Part shown: one piece after another, positions 19,168 to 22,828 of the stretch
Layout: the number at the start of each line of letters is the position of its first letter
How positions within the stretch are numbered: the stretch's first letter is position 1
DNA from: Limimaricola cinnabarinus
GTDB taxonomy: Bacteria > Pseudomonadota > Alphaproteobacteria > Rhodobacterales > Rhodobacteraceae
Assembly (NCBI RefSeq): GCF_002723615.1
Contig: NZ_KZ304969.1
Location: 1-55,746, forward strand
Length of the DNA: 55,746 nucleotides
Reading direction: 5' to 3'
Translations under genes and position numbers: made by a program
Notes under the pieces: model-generated
The model's input: only the letters and a program-made list of their open reading frames with translations
Database searches by the model: none
What the model was told of the DNA's origin: nothing

Positions 19168-20115
19168 ATGGCGCATGCGAAGACCCCAGACGCCCATCCG
19201 GGCGACATCAACAAGCCGGGCTGGTTCGCCACCCTCAAGCGGGTCTATTCCGAGATCGGCGACGACCATGTCAGCCTGATCGCCGCCGGATGCGCCTTCT
19301 ACGGCCTGCTTGCCATCTTTCCCGGCATCGTCGCGGCCATGGCCATCGCCGGGCTGTTCTTCGACCCCTCGACCGTGGTGAACCAGCTGCAGTCGCTTTC
19401 GGCCTTCCTGCCGCAGCAGGCTGCCGAGATCGTGCTCGGTCAGGCGCAGGAGGTCGCGGGCTCCGAACAGGGCGGGCTCGGCCTCGCCGCGGTCTTCGGC
19501 ATCCTCGTGGCGATCTACTCGGCCTCCAAGGGCGTGCAGTCGCTGATGGAGGGGCTCAACGTCGCCTTCGAGGCCGAGGAGACGCGCGGCCTCATCGCCT
19601 TCAACGTCCAGAAGCTCCTGCTGACGCTGGGCATGATCCTGGGCTTCTTGCTCATCATCGCCGTTGCGGCGCTGCTGCCGGTCGTGCTCGGCATCCTGCC
19701 CCTGGGCCAGACGACCGAGCTGATCATCAACATCGTGCGCTGGCCCATCCTTCTGGTCTTCGTGGCGCTGGGCCTTGCCATCCTCTACCGCTACGGCCCC
19801 GACCGGGGCGACAAGAAATGGCGCTGGATCACGCCGGGTGCGGGGCTGGCCTGCCTGTTGTGGCTTGTGGGCTCGGTGGCTTTCGCCTTCTATGTGCGCA
19901 ACTTCGGCGGCTACAACGAGACCTTCGGCGCGCTGGGCGGGGTGATCGTGCTTCTGATGTGGCTGTGGCTCTCGGCCTTCATCGTGCTGATGGGCGCGGA
20001 GTTCGACAGCGAGATGGAGCGGCAGGCCAAGCACGACCCGCAGCCCGAAGACGCCAAGGACGACCCGCTGATGGACGATGCCAAATCCGAAGCCGGCAAG
20101 CCCGTCGCGCAGTGA
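19168..20115 (+). CDS. YihY/virulence factor BrkB-family membrane protein
   Basis: A 315-residue integral membrane protein with about six hydrophobic segments: LIAAGCAFYGLLAIFPGIVAAMAIAG, the FGILVAIYSASKG region, LLLTLGMILGFLLIIAVAALLPVVL, ILLVFVALGLAILYRYGP, the PGAGLACLLWLVGSVAF segment and VIVLLMWLWLSAFIVLMGAEF. The last of these, ending in GAEFDSE, is diagnostic of the family. An acidic and basic cytoplasmic tail follows. The family was once taken for RNase BN; its role is unsettled. GCGGAGG precedes the ATG. Confidence 0.9.
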   Translation: MAHAKTPDAHPGDINKPGWFATLKRVYSEIGDDHVSLIAAGCAFYGLLAIFPGIVAAMAIAGLFFDPSTVVNQLQSLSAFLPQQAAEIVLGQAQEVAGSEQGGLGLAAVFGILVAIYSASKGVQSLMEGLNVAFEAEETRGLIAFNVQKLLLTLGMILGFLLIIAVAALLPVVLGILPLGQTTELIINIVRWPILLVFVALGLAILYRYGPDRGDKKWRWITPGAGLACLLWLVGSVAFAFYVRNFGGYNETFGALGGVIVLLMWLWLSAFIVLMGAEFDSEMERQAKHDPQPEDAKDDPLMDDAKSEAGKPVAQ

Positions 20116-20123
20116 TCCTTCGC

Positions 20124-20149
20124 GGATCGGCCCCGCGCGGGGCCGATCC
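20124..20149 (+). terminator. Terminator after yihY
   Basis: Perfect 11-bp stem GGATCGGCCCC (20124-20134) / GGGGCCGATCC (20139-20149) with a GCGC loop. The following bases (TGATAACTTTGTT) are AT-rich but lack a clean T-run. Confidence 0.65.
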
Positions 20150-20205
20150 TGATAACTTTGTTACCCTATATCGCGACCGCGCGACATTTTCTCCGCCGTT
20201 TGCGG

Positions 20206-20235
20206 TTGACGCTCCCGCCCGCCCGTGCATATCTG
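20206..20235 (+). promoter_or_regulatory. Candidate sigma-70 promoter of the ilvBN operon
   Basis: TTGACG (20206-20211), an 18-base spacer, TATCTG (20230-20235). The transcription start would be near 20242, about 22 bases before the leader-peptide ATG. GC-rich inverted arms flank the -10. Confidence 0.55.
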
Positions 20236-20263
20236 CGCGGGCGGAACGAAAGGACCGGGGAAG

Positions 20264-20311
20264 ATGGATCTCCTTGTGGTAATCGGTGAGGATGGGCGCG
20301 TGGGCCGGTGA
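20264..20311 (+). CDS. ilvL: ilv leader peptide (attenuator)
   Basis: A 15-residue open frame, MDLLVVIGEDGRVGR, ending in TGA at 20309-20311. Residues 3-7 are five branched-chain amino acids in a row (Leu-Leu-Val-Val-Ile), exactly the products whose supply the downstream ilvBN genes control. GGGGAAG lies just before the ATG. Its position between a promoter and a terminator hairpin, with an alternative antiterminator helix, is that of a classical amino-acid attenuator. The symbol is by analogy. It is far below the size that automatic gene finders call. Confidence 0.85.
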   Translation: MDLLVVIGEDGRVGR

Positions 20312-20343
20312 CGGCAGGGACCATGACGGTCGACCATGCGCCC
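20294..20343 (+). promoter_or_regulatory. Antiterminator pairing of the ilvBN attenuator
   Basis: GGGCGCGTGG (20294-20303, inside the leader-peptide frame) can pair over ten positions, one of them G-U, with CCATGCGCCC (20334-20343). The 3' arm takes the first three bases of the terminator stem, so the two structures exclude each other. A ribosome stalled at the Val-Val-Ile codons leaves most of the 5' arm free; one that reaches the stop codon at 20311 covers it. Confidence 0.7.
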
Positions 20344-20365
20344 CCGGATCACCGGGGGCTTTTTT
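20341..20365 (+). terminator. Attenuator terminator in the ilvBN leader
   Basis: CCCCCGG (20341-20347), loop ATCA, CCGGGGG (20352-20358), then CTTTTTT (20359-20365). It is a textbook intrinsic terminator 39 bases before the ilvB start codon, so it must regulate ilvB rather than end an upstream gene. Confidence 0.88.
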
Positions 20366-20403
20366 GTACGCAAGGCGCGGCAGACAGACAGGACACGGGC
20401 ACG

Positions 20404-22176
20404 ATGACAGGGCAGACGGAGCAAACGGGCGGGCAGATGACCGGTGCGAAGATGGTCGTCCAGGCACTGAGGGATCAGGGCGTCGACACGGTGTTCGGCT
20501 ATCCCGGCGGCGCGGTGCTGCCGATCTATGACGAGCTGTTCCAGCAAAACGACATCCGCCACGTGCTGGTGCGCCACGAACAGGGCGCGATCCACGCCGC
20601 CGAGGGCTATGCCCGCTCGACCGGCAAGCCCGGCGTCGCCATCGTCACCTCCGGCCCCGGCGCGACCAACGCCGTCACCGGCCTGACCGATGCGCTGCTG
20701 GATTCGATCCCGATCGTCGTGCTGTCGGGCCAGGTGCCGACCTTCATGATCGGCTCCGACGCGTTTCAGGAGGCCGACACCGTCGGCATCACCCGCCCCT
20801 GCACCAAGCATAACTGGCTGGTCAAGGAGACCGACAGGCTCGGCTCCACCCTGCACGAGGCCTTTCACGTCGCGACCCAAGGCCGCCCCGGCCCGGTGCT
20901 CGTCGACATCCCGAAAGACGTGCAGTTCGCCACCGGCAGCTATGGCGGCAAGGAAACCCGCTCGACCCGCTACGCCCCCCCCGTGAAGGGCGACGCGGCG
21001 GCGATCGAGGCGCTGGCCCGCGCGATGGAGACGGCCAGGCGCCCGATCTTCTACACCGGCGGCGGCGTCATCAATTCCGGCCCCGAGGCCAGCAAGCTGC
21101 TGCGCGATCTGGTCGAGGCCACGGGCTTTCCGATCACCTCGACCCTGATGGGCCTCGGCGCCTATCCCGCGAGCGGCGAGCAATGGCTCGGCATGCTCGG
21201 CATGCACGGGCTCTATGAAGCCAACATGGCGATGCATGGCTGCGACCTGATGATCTGCATCGGCGCGCGCTTCGACGACCGGATCACCGGCCGGATCGAC
21301 GCCTTCTCGCCCAACTCGACCCGCGCGCATATCGACATCGACCCTTCCTCGCTCAACAAGGTGATCCGCACCGACATCCCGATCATCGGCGACGTGGCAG
21401 AGGTGCTCAAGGAGCTGCTCGGGGCCTGGTCGGCGCGCGGCCGCAAGACCGACCGCGAGGGGCTGGCGCAGTGGCAGGCGCAGATCAACGAATGGCGCGC
21501 CAAGGATTGCCTCGCCTTCCGCAACTCCGACAAGGTGATCAAGCCGCAATACGCGCTGCAAAGGCTCGAGGCGCTGACCAAGGACCGCGACCGCTACATC
21601 ACCACCGAGGTGGGCCAGCACCAGATGTGGGCGGCGCAATACTTGGGCTTCGAAGCGCCCAACCGCTGGATGACCTCGGGCGGCCTCGGCACCATGGGCT
21701 ACGGCTTTCCGGCGTCGGTCGGCGTGCAGATGGCGCATCCCGACAGCCTCGTGATCAATGTCGCGGGCGAGGCGTCGTGGCTGATGAACATGCAGGAGAT
21801 GGGGACGGCGGTGCAGTACCGCCTGCCCGTGAAGCAGTTCATCCTCAACAACGAGCGTCTCGGCATGGTGCGCCAGTGGCAGGAGCTCCTGCATGGCGAG
21901 CGTTATTCACAGAGCTGGTCCGAGGCGCTGCCCGATTTCGTCAAGCTCGCGGAGGCCTTCGGCGCCAAGGGGATCATCTGTAAGGACCCGGCCGATCTCG
22001 ACGACGCGATCATGGAGATGCTCGACCATGACGGACCCGTCATCTTCGATTGCCTCGTCGAGAAGCACGAGAACTGCTTTCCGATGATCCCGAGCGGAAA
22101 GGCCCATAACGAGATGCTGATGGGCGAGGTTTCGACCGCCCATGCCATCGAGGCCGGCGGCGCGGTGCTGGTGTGA
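20404..22176 (+). CDS. ilvB: Acetolactate synthase large (catalytic) subunit
   Basis: Thiamin-diphosphate enzyme that condenses two pyruvates, or pyruvate and 2-ketobutyrate, at the start of valine, leucine and isoleucine synthesis. The 590-residue product has the N-terminal PYR domain with FGYPGGAVLPIYDEL and the catalytic Glu in VRHEQGAIHAAEGYAR, a middle domain, and the C-terminal PP domain ending the cofactor motif in LNNERLGMVRQWQ. The usual GDG of the cofactor motif reads AGEASWLMNMQE. ATG 20404 follows the attenuator terminator; ATG 20437 is an alternative. The frame is open back to a GTG at 20308, but that would start inside the leader peptide and run through the terminator. Confidence 0.95.
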   Translation: MTGQTEQTGGQMTGAKMVVQALRDQGVDTVFGYPGGAVLPIYDELFQQNDIRHVLVRHEQGAIHAAEGYARSTGKPGVAIVTSGPGATNAVTGLTDALLDSIPIVVLSGQVPTFMIGSDAFQEADTVGITRPCTKHNWLVKETDRLGSTLHEAFHVATQGRPGPVLVDIPKDVQFATGSYGGKETRSTRYAPPVKGDAAAIEALARAMETARRPIFYTGGGVINSGPEASKLLRDLVEATGFPITSTLMGLGAYPASGEQWLGMLGMHGLYEANMAMHGCDLMICIGARFDDRITGRIDAFSPNSTRAHIDIDPSSLNKVIRTDIPIIGDVAEVLKELLGAWSARGRKTDREGLAQWQAQINEWRAKDCLAFRNSDKVIKPQYALQRLEALTKDRDRYITTEVGQHQMWAAQYLGFEAPNRWMTSGGLGTMGYGFPASVGVQMAHPDSLVINVAGEASWLMNMQEMGTAVQYRLPVKQFILNNERLGMVRQWQELLHGERYSQSWSEALPDFVKLAEAFGAKGIICKDPADLDDAIMEMLDHDGPVIFDCLVEKHENCFPMIPSGKAHNEMLMGEVSTAHAIEAGGAVLV

Positions 22177-22261: not shown

Positions 22262-22828
22262 ATGCTGAACATCAAGGCCGGCTCGACCAGCCACTCCGCC
22301 TACAACCTCCGCTCCGTCTATTCCGACGTGGAGGAGCGCCACACCCTCGCCGTCATCGTCGAGAACGAACCCGGCGTGCTGGCCCGCGTCATCGGCCTCT
22401 TTTCGGGGCGCGGCTACAACATCGAAAGCCTCACCGTGGCCGAGATCGACCACACCGGGCACATGTCGCGCATCACCCTCGTCACCTCGGGCACGCCGCA
22501 GGTGATCGAGCAGATCAAGGCGCAGCTCGGCCGCATCGTGCCGGTCCACGAGGTGCATGACCTCACCGTCGAGGGCGCCACGGTCGAGCGCGAGCTGGCG
22601 CTGTTCAAGGTGCGCGGCGAGGGCGAGCACCGGGTCGAGGCGCTGCGGCTGGCCGACATCTTCCGCGCCAACGTGGTCGATTCGACGCTCGAAAGCTTCG
22701 TCTTCGAGATCACCGGCACGCCGGAGAAGATCGACGCCTTCGCCGATCTGATGCGCCCCCTCGGGCTGATCGAGCTGGCGCGCACCGGCGTGGCGGCGCT
22801 GTCGCGCGGGCCGGATTCGCGGGTCTGA
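22262..22828 (+). CDS. ilvN: Acetolactate synthase small (regulatory) subunit
   Basis: A 188-residue regulatory subunit that binds valine and sets the activity of the IlvB subunit. The N-terminal ACT domain is clear (TLAVIVENEPGVLARVIGLFSGRGYNI, about residues 28-54), followed by the second conserved domain with VERELALFKV and the ending GLIELARTGVAALSRG. AGGAAAGGACGACCCC precedes ATG 22262; an in-frame extension to 22142 would overlap ilvB and the three hairpins. It is expressed with ilvB and is therefore under the same attenuator. Confidence 0.95.
   Translation: MLNIKAGSTSHSAYNLRSVYSDVEERHTLAVIVENEPGVLARVIGLFSGRGYNIESLTVAEIDHTGHMSRITLVTSGTPQVIEQIKAQLGRIVPVHEVHDLTVEGATVERELALFKVRGEGEHRVEALRLADIFRANVVDSTLESFVFEITGTPEKIDAFADLMRPLGLIELARTGVAALSRGPDSRV

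Follow-up and report, generated by a model that had tools for sequence, protein, structure and literature searches.

Probable attenuation of ilvBN by a branched-chain leader peptide in Limimaricola cinnabarinus, and a similar leader in front of Bcr/CflA-type transporter genes

The window analysed here is the whole stretch of 55,746 nucleotides of Limimaricola cinnabarinus contig NZ_KZ304969.1 (assembly GCF_002723615.1, positions 1 to 55,746), and it carries ilvB and ilvN, the genes of the large and small subunits of acetolactate synthase. The region in front of ilvB very probably controls ilvBN by ribosome-mediated transcription attenuation that responds to the charging of Leu-, Val-, and Ile-tRNA. 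We infer the response to tRNA charging from the leader sequence and its conservation. The initial annotation of this stretch had proposed the same reading, which is supported by the branched-chain codons and the two helices kept across relatives. A hairpin around the leader stop codon, a minimal overlap between the antiterminator helix and the terminator, and copies of the leader in front of transporter genes are additions to that proposal. All features of the window described below are on the forward strand.

The leader open reading frame (ORF) is located at 20264-20311 and translates, as claimed before, into the peptide MDLLVVIGEDGRVGR, with 15 codons and a UGA stop. Its codons 3-7 (20270-20284, CTC CTT GTG GTA ATC) encode Leu-Leu-Val-Val-Ile and are the putative control codons. 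Conservation has been assessed in 111 ilvB loci, namely the window, 30 same-family loci (those given in a search of 60 other genomes), and 80 named GTDB loci (the best 80 of 589). A leader was counted when an ORF of 11-19 codons contained a run of three Ile/Leu/Val residues, or at least four of them among the eight residues following the start, and was followed by a T-run 20-110 nt 3' of the ORF; the Ile/Leu/Val content was itself a criterion in this selection. Qualifying leaders are present in 104 of the 111 loci (75 of the 80 named loci, 28 of the 30 other same-family loci, and the window). The peptides broadly resemble M..LVVIVG..RMGR, and 95 of the 104 leaders have exactly 15 codons.

Seven loci lack a qualifying ORF (L012, L031, L036, L051, L079, L106, and L110). 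By eye, the leader is apparently absent in L012, L079, and L110 and looks degenerate in L031, while L051 and L106 still show the RNA layout but have few branched-chain codons; L036 is cut by a contig end. In L051 and L106, the RMGR ending upstream of ilvB is kept and the branched-chain run is reduced (MTLGAAIVAERRMGR and MDCFVDDVGKKRMGR, respectively), which is perhaps a loss of amino acid sensing. A covariance model built from 80 of the 104 ilvB leaders (R1) matches 264 of the 292 genomes of the order and 108 of its 112 genera, and the window's own genome contains one match in total at E 1. The other 28 genomes of the order have no R1 match. Among the 20 non-matching genomes listed (eight further ones are unlisted), 13 belong to the genus g24, which includes the genome of L012. 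At L235, in another family, a different-looking short ORF, MTTQLVLIRQPLSGRD, lies upstream of ilvB and is possibly an unrelated leader.

The composition of the branched-chain run points to selection at the amino acid level. The second base of codons 4-8 is T in 455 of the 475 codons of the 95 fifteen-codon leaders, all of them encoding Ile, Leu, or Val. Phe and Met are absent from these 475 codons, where about 20 and 67 (about 87 together) would be expected from the base frequencies of the neighbouring codons. Leu, Val, and Ile are all present in 83 of the 95 leaders. CTA makes up 42% of the Leu codons in the leaders as opposed to 1.6% in the ilvB genes that follow them, and GTA makes up 50% of the Val codons as opposed to 4.9%. 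The excess of A-ending codons is strongest within the branched-chain run (190 observed, 17 expected). The enrichment of CTA and GTA and the joint presence of Leu, Val, and Ile point to amino acid sensing.

The leader RNA can form a helix that competes with an intrinsic terminator. This helix, which we will call P1 (the antiterminator), pairs 20294-20303, within the leader ORF, with 20334-20343. The helix had been suggested previously, and it is the main stem in the predicted fold of 20264-20345 (z -1.9). P1 encloses two small hairpins, P2 (20304-20315, GCCG-GUGA-CGGC), which places the UGA stop codon in a GNRA-type loop, and P3 (20319-20331, GACC-AUGAC-GGUC). The terminator occupies 20340-20365. 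Its stem at 20340-20359 has 8 G-C pairs and a 4-nt loop and is followed by TTTTTT, in agreement with the earlier description. It is one of two terminator-like sites in 20000-20700, compared with a shuffle mean of 0.2. A fold prediction for the longer, untranslated RNA (20235-20367) gives the terminator without P1 (z -1.25).

These structures are also seen in the alignment of relatives. None of 500 shuffles reaches any of five measures for P1, P2, and P3 taken together, and for the terminator two of the five measures are reached by 1 and 7 of 500 shuffles, both tests being uncorrected for relatedness. Sliding the combined P1, P2, and P3 structure lowers the pairing from 77.6% to 26-44%, and the true position tops all slid versions. 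The terminator is 93.9% paired and shows compensatory two-sided changes at 4 pairs. P3 is weakly supported as a conserved hairpin, with 45.8% of its cells paired in a poor alignment. The conservation that the initial annotation named as a check holds for the branched-chain codons and, through compensatory changes, for the helices, with losses in some loci.

The P2 hairpin brings the stop codon itself into the structure. In 87 of the 104 leaders, at least 3 bp close a 4-nt loop that comprises the stop codon and the third position of codon 15, while such a stem occurs in 5% of shuffled local sequences. Of the 104 leaders, 76 have GUAA as the loop and 20 have GUGA, and changes on both sides are found at all 4 pairs. 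Since 74 of the 87 carriers have the same GCCG/CGGN stem, the independent support for P2 comes from the other 13, whose stems include GUCU/AGAC, GAUC/GAUC, GUCG/CGAC (in three leaders), and GGCG/CGCU. P2 is not kept in this form in 17 of the 104 leaders.

Predicted folds of the 95 leaders, with the RNA under the ribosome and 5' of it removed, outline how translation could operate the switch. The footprint size of the ribosome was an assumed value. When the ribosome sits at codon 6 or 8 of an unfinished transcript, P1 is the predicted fold in 94 of the 95 leaders. With the ribosome at the stop codon, P1 is predicted in none and the terminator in all 95; by geometry and these folds, a ribosome with this footprint would mask the P1 5' arm. 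When charged tRNA is ample, the ribosome would arrive at the stop codon, cover this arm, and melt P2, and the terminator would then form with its full stem, ending transcription near 20365. A shortage of charged Leu-, Val-, or Ile-tRNA would instead stall the ribosome on codons 3-7, and P1, together with P2, would form ahead of the synthesis of the terminator 3' arm. P1 would hold the basal, U-proximal base pairs of the terminator when these are needed, allowing RNA polymerase to read into ilvBN. A terminating ribosome would have to melt P2, which a stalled one would leave free. The effect of P1 is likely graded and kinetic and not all-or-none, because the stretch that it has in common with the terminator is short.

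Several observations weigh against attenuation in this form. P1 and the terminator overlap by 0 nt in 2 of the 95 leaders, 1 nt in 11, 2 nt in 48, 3 nt in 31, and 4 nt in 3, and a trimmed P1 can coexist with the full terminator. In the complete RNA, the enforced full terminator beats the enforced full P1 by a median of 1.3 kcal/mol (1.5 kcal/mol in the window), and the full P1 is favoured in 15 of 93 leaders. With the ribosome at codon 6 of the complete RNA, the predicted folds contain P1 pairs for 94 of the 95 leaders and the terminator for 93; the two would be present together, so that exclusion would rest on kinetics. In 79 of the 95 leaders, though not in the window, the P1 arm is also predicted for RNA that is not being translated. 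The RNAalifold consensus contains 4 P1 pairs and the terminator simultaneously, without P2 and without a pause or protector hairpin. The shuffle tests take no account of relatedness among the sequences. As to the codons, the run's own base frequencies predict only 2 Phe and 8 Met (about 10 together), and in the window leader CTA is absent and GTA occurs once. The A-ending excess also extends to codon 9 (67 observed, 9.3 expected) and codons 2-3 (41 observed, 14.7 expected), and as a result part of the codon bias may serve another purpose, such as keeping the RNA open.

Based on these observations, the earlier claim that the alternative helix excludes the terminator can be kept in part. A conserved overlapping helix is present, but full exclusion goes too far, since only 20340-20343, 4 nt, are common to both in the window and coexistence is possible. 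With 0-4 nt in common, the exclusion is partial and, judging by the modelled folds, probably kinetic. The overlap, however, is under selection. Position 3 of codon 11 pairs with the second terminator base, and G stands there in 100 of the 104 leaders although the encoded amino acid varies. When Trp and Met codons are set aside, 61 of 65 codons have G at this position, where 22 would be expected.

A similar leader is found in front of an unrelated gene. A search of 385 genomes of the class with R1 at E 0.01 gave 17 matches. Those in the window's own genome and in 4 genomes of its family all precede ilvB, and the 11 matches in 10 other families all precede an MFS gene. The remaining match, L132 (E 0.0045), precedes neither gene and has been taken as spurious. 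Within the order of the window, 12 genomes have a second R1 match. In 11 of them, one copy precedes ilvB and one an MFS gene, and the twelfth, G628, has one MFS copy and another match at E 5.4e-4. The matches examined that do not belong to ilvB number 24, and in 23 of them the next gene is a Bcr/CflA-type MFS gene, an assignment based on two MFS proteins scored with TIGR00710 (220 and 203 bits). The 23 genomes with an MFS leader are the 11 in 10 other families and 12 in the window's own family.

The MFS leaders resemble those of ilvB in size and composition. Their length is 15-17 codons in 21 of the 23. Excluding the start and the last four codons, 250 codons contain 66 Val, 14 Ile, and 12 Leu, and GTA makes up 32% of the Val codons, compared with 4% in the MFS genes. 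A run of at least three Ile/Leu/Val residues occurs in 15 of the 23 and in 5% of shuffles, a comparison that is somewhat biased because the score used to pick the ORF favours these residues. Of the P1 cells, 88.9% are paired, and the pairing of the whole structure falls from 81.9% to 34.5-53.0% when it is slid. Taken by themselves, however, these 23 leaders show no more covariation than shuffled ones: 268 of 500 shuffles reach the score and 401 of 500 the percentage paired. A covariance model built from these 23 leaders (R2) recovers the ilvB leaders, with the window at E 4e-9; this recovery is not independent, since the 23 sequences were found with R1. In 398 genomes of the phylum, R2 matched 23, all listed in the window's own family. 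Loci with an MFS leader (L121-L131, L174, L180-L190, L194, L196, L197, L201, and L221) come from Alpha- and some Betaproteobacteria, and their leaders are mostly valine-rich.

The distribution of the leader has also been followed from the transporter side. MFS homologues drawn by protein from the 385 class genomes occur at 26 places in 23 genomes. Among the 17 with at least 52% identity, 11 have the leader (R1 E 4e-7 or better), 5 do not, and one, L262, has a variant leader (E 0.0077); none of the 9 homologues below 52% identity has it. The 11 leader-bearing homologues are in the genomes that R1 had already found. The best MFS homologue of the window's own genome, 32% identical, has no leader. 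In the plasmid collection, 14 of 26 MFS matches were examined, and R1, run on the first eight, found the leader in 4 of these at E 2e-12 or better. Overall, five of the 14 records have the leader (L194, L196, L197, L201, and L221), three have a weak variant (L198, L223, and L224), and six have none (L195, L199, L200, L222, L225, and L226). The variants, from Rhizobium and Phyllobacterium (L198:1235-1366, L223:1232-1359, and L224:1235-1363), have the same P1 arms, GCGCATGG and CCATGCGC, and a Val-containing ORF with a different terminator. Named records with an MFS leader are those of Roseobacter denitrificans, Phaeobacter piscinae, Leisingera caerulea, Burkholderia arboris, and B. cenocepacia. 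In Leisingera caerulea (L197:1-1118), the leader-bearing MFS gene lies beside genes annotated as a chloramphenicol phosphotransferase of the CPT family and a GNAT acetyltransferase. In a tree of 38 MFS proteins, the leader carriers fall inside a 34-row fork (93/100, just below the tool's star), and the leader label changes at least three times. The tree is suggestive of a leader ancestral to this MFS group, with the caveat that most carriers were picked for having the leader.

Taken together, these results allow a tentative proposal, which we consider possible, of one module with two unrelated target genes: ilvBN in the window's own family and a Bcr/CflA-type MFS gene in Alpha- and some Betaproteobacteria. 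In its boldest form, the module would sense impaired translation of valine (branched-chain) codons and switch on a transporter directed against toxins that bring about this starvation, and ilvBN would have recruited it in the family ancestor. Its distinguishing parts would be the stop codon in a tetraloop hairpin and the minimal overlap with the terminator.

A rather unlikely explanation is a general translation-rate sensor, in which any early slowing of the ribosome, by an antibiotic, a toxin, or starvation, weakens the terminator; the branched-chain codons would only tune the response, and the efflux-type transporter would have come first and ilvBN later. The predominance of Bcr/CflA-type MFS genes behind the non-ilvB matches (23 of 24) and the scatter of leader-bearing MFS genes over families are in its favour. 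So is the finding that ilvB outside the window's own family has no R1 match in any of 16 genomes, 11 of which carry the MFS leader, as is the tendency of the untranslated RNA toward P1 (79 of 95). On the other hand, the co-occurrence of Leu, Val, and Ile in 83 of the 95 ilvB leaders and the enriched CTA and GTA codons speak for amino acid sensing, and the Val-rich MFS leaders are also compatible with tRNA sensing.

It is quite improbable that the terminated leader is itself the product, a small RNA or peptide acting in trans that perhaps links ilvBN and the MFS gene through complementary P1 arms. The RMGR peptide end and the like arms are conserved in both kinds of leader, and peTrpL of Sinorhizobium meliloti is a reported precedent (PMC7298713). 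However, the conserved peptide end is accounted for by the RNA, because codons 12-15 encode the P1 arm and P2. That the site simply ends transcription of the YihY-family gene upstream, next to a chance ORF, is hardly credible and has been rejected: although this gene, on the same strand, ends at 20115, the terminator begins 225 nt past it, behind the promoter box, and the length and codons of the ORF, the promoter box, and the helices are conserved across 104 loci. Attenuation of ilvBN by tRNA charging remains the preferred reading.

The other features of the locus fit around the leader. Of the two promoter-like boxes reported before, the -35 box TTGACG (20206-20211) stands, with TTGAC found 42-64 nt 5' of the leader start in 102 of the 104 leaders (chance expectation 3%). 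The possible -10 box TATCTG (20230-20235, spacer 18) is weak, being a poor fit to the TTGACG-N17-TAATGT pattern of the relatives, and a sigma-70 scan of this region of the window gave no promoter site. A possible leader ribosome binding site, AAAGGA, lies at 20249-20254, where many relatives have purine-rich stretches by eye. The upstream neighbour encodes a YihY-family membrane protein (110 bits). Downstream, ilvB extends over 20404-22176 (TIGR00118, 764.9 bits; NF006581, 1117.7 bits) and ilvN over 22262-22828 (TIGR00119, 178.8 bits). The ATG at 20404 is likely the start of ilvB by comparison with relatives. A start at 20308, which the initial annotation had called wrong, is not conserved, since only 31 of the 104 leaders have an ilvB frame that stays open upstream as far as the leader stop. 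Rfam release 15 gave no match at gathering score in the window, and a known Rfam element has been rejected as its identity; for L116 and the loci L121-L131, a search to E 1 gave ASpks alone, below its gathering score. PMC3766115 states that Ile/Val attenuators were absent from Rfam at that time.

These findings give most genomes of one family (the roseobacter/Rhodobacteraceae group, by the named IlvB relatives) a testable control point of branched-chain synthesis, and the leader analysis fixes the ilvB start. The transporter-linked module weighs more than the original ilvBN claim. If it works in the same way, it would name a cue for a group of transporters annotated only as multidrug efflux, and one attenuator would be common to a biosynthetic operon and a transporter. 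Among the literature matches listed, which cover open-licence PMC articles so that absence is weak evidence, nothing was found on a Rhodobacteraceae ilvB leader, on a valine leader preceding a Bcr/CflA transporter gene, or, within one search, on an attenuator with its stop codon in a tetraloop; a small overlap between helix and terminator was not searched for.

The enterobacterial ilvB, ilvG, and leu attenuators combine a branched-chain leader peptide, a terminator, and a competing helix, with rare Leu codons in leuL. Their competing helix occupies most of a terminator arm, whereas here the overlap is only 0-4 nt, which offers a clean system for asking how little competition blocks intrinsic termination. 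In alphaproteobacteria, an ilvB leader peptide has already been described by Vitreschak et al. 2004, as cited in PMC1273637. Attenuation of ilvBN in Caulobacter crescentus, with tandem Ile and Val codons and a rho-independent terminator, is cited in PMC4117421 from Tarleton et al. 1994, and by this description it is alike in its Ile/Val leader codons and terminator. On the strength of these two reports, as cited, the ilvBN attenuator as such belongs to an already known class. In another phylum, the Corynebacterium ilvB-II upstream ORF (uORF) described in PMC10272879 is usually 15-17 residues long, rich in branched-chain residues, and accompanied by a terminator and an antiterminator, and its layout is alike by description. 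In the same order as the window, uORFC-8-2 in front of cysS is presented in PMC8632094 as a candidate ribosome-mediated attenuator of Rhodobacterales, but with cysteine codons and before another gene.

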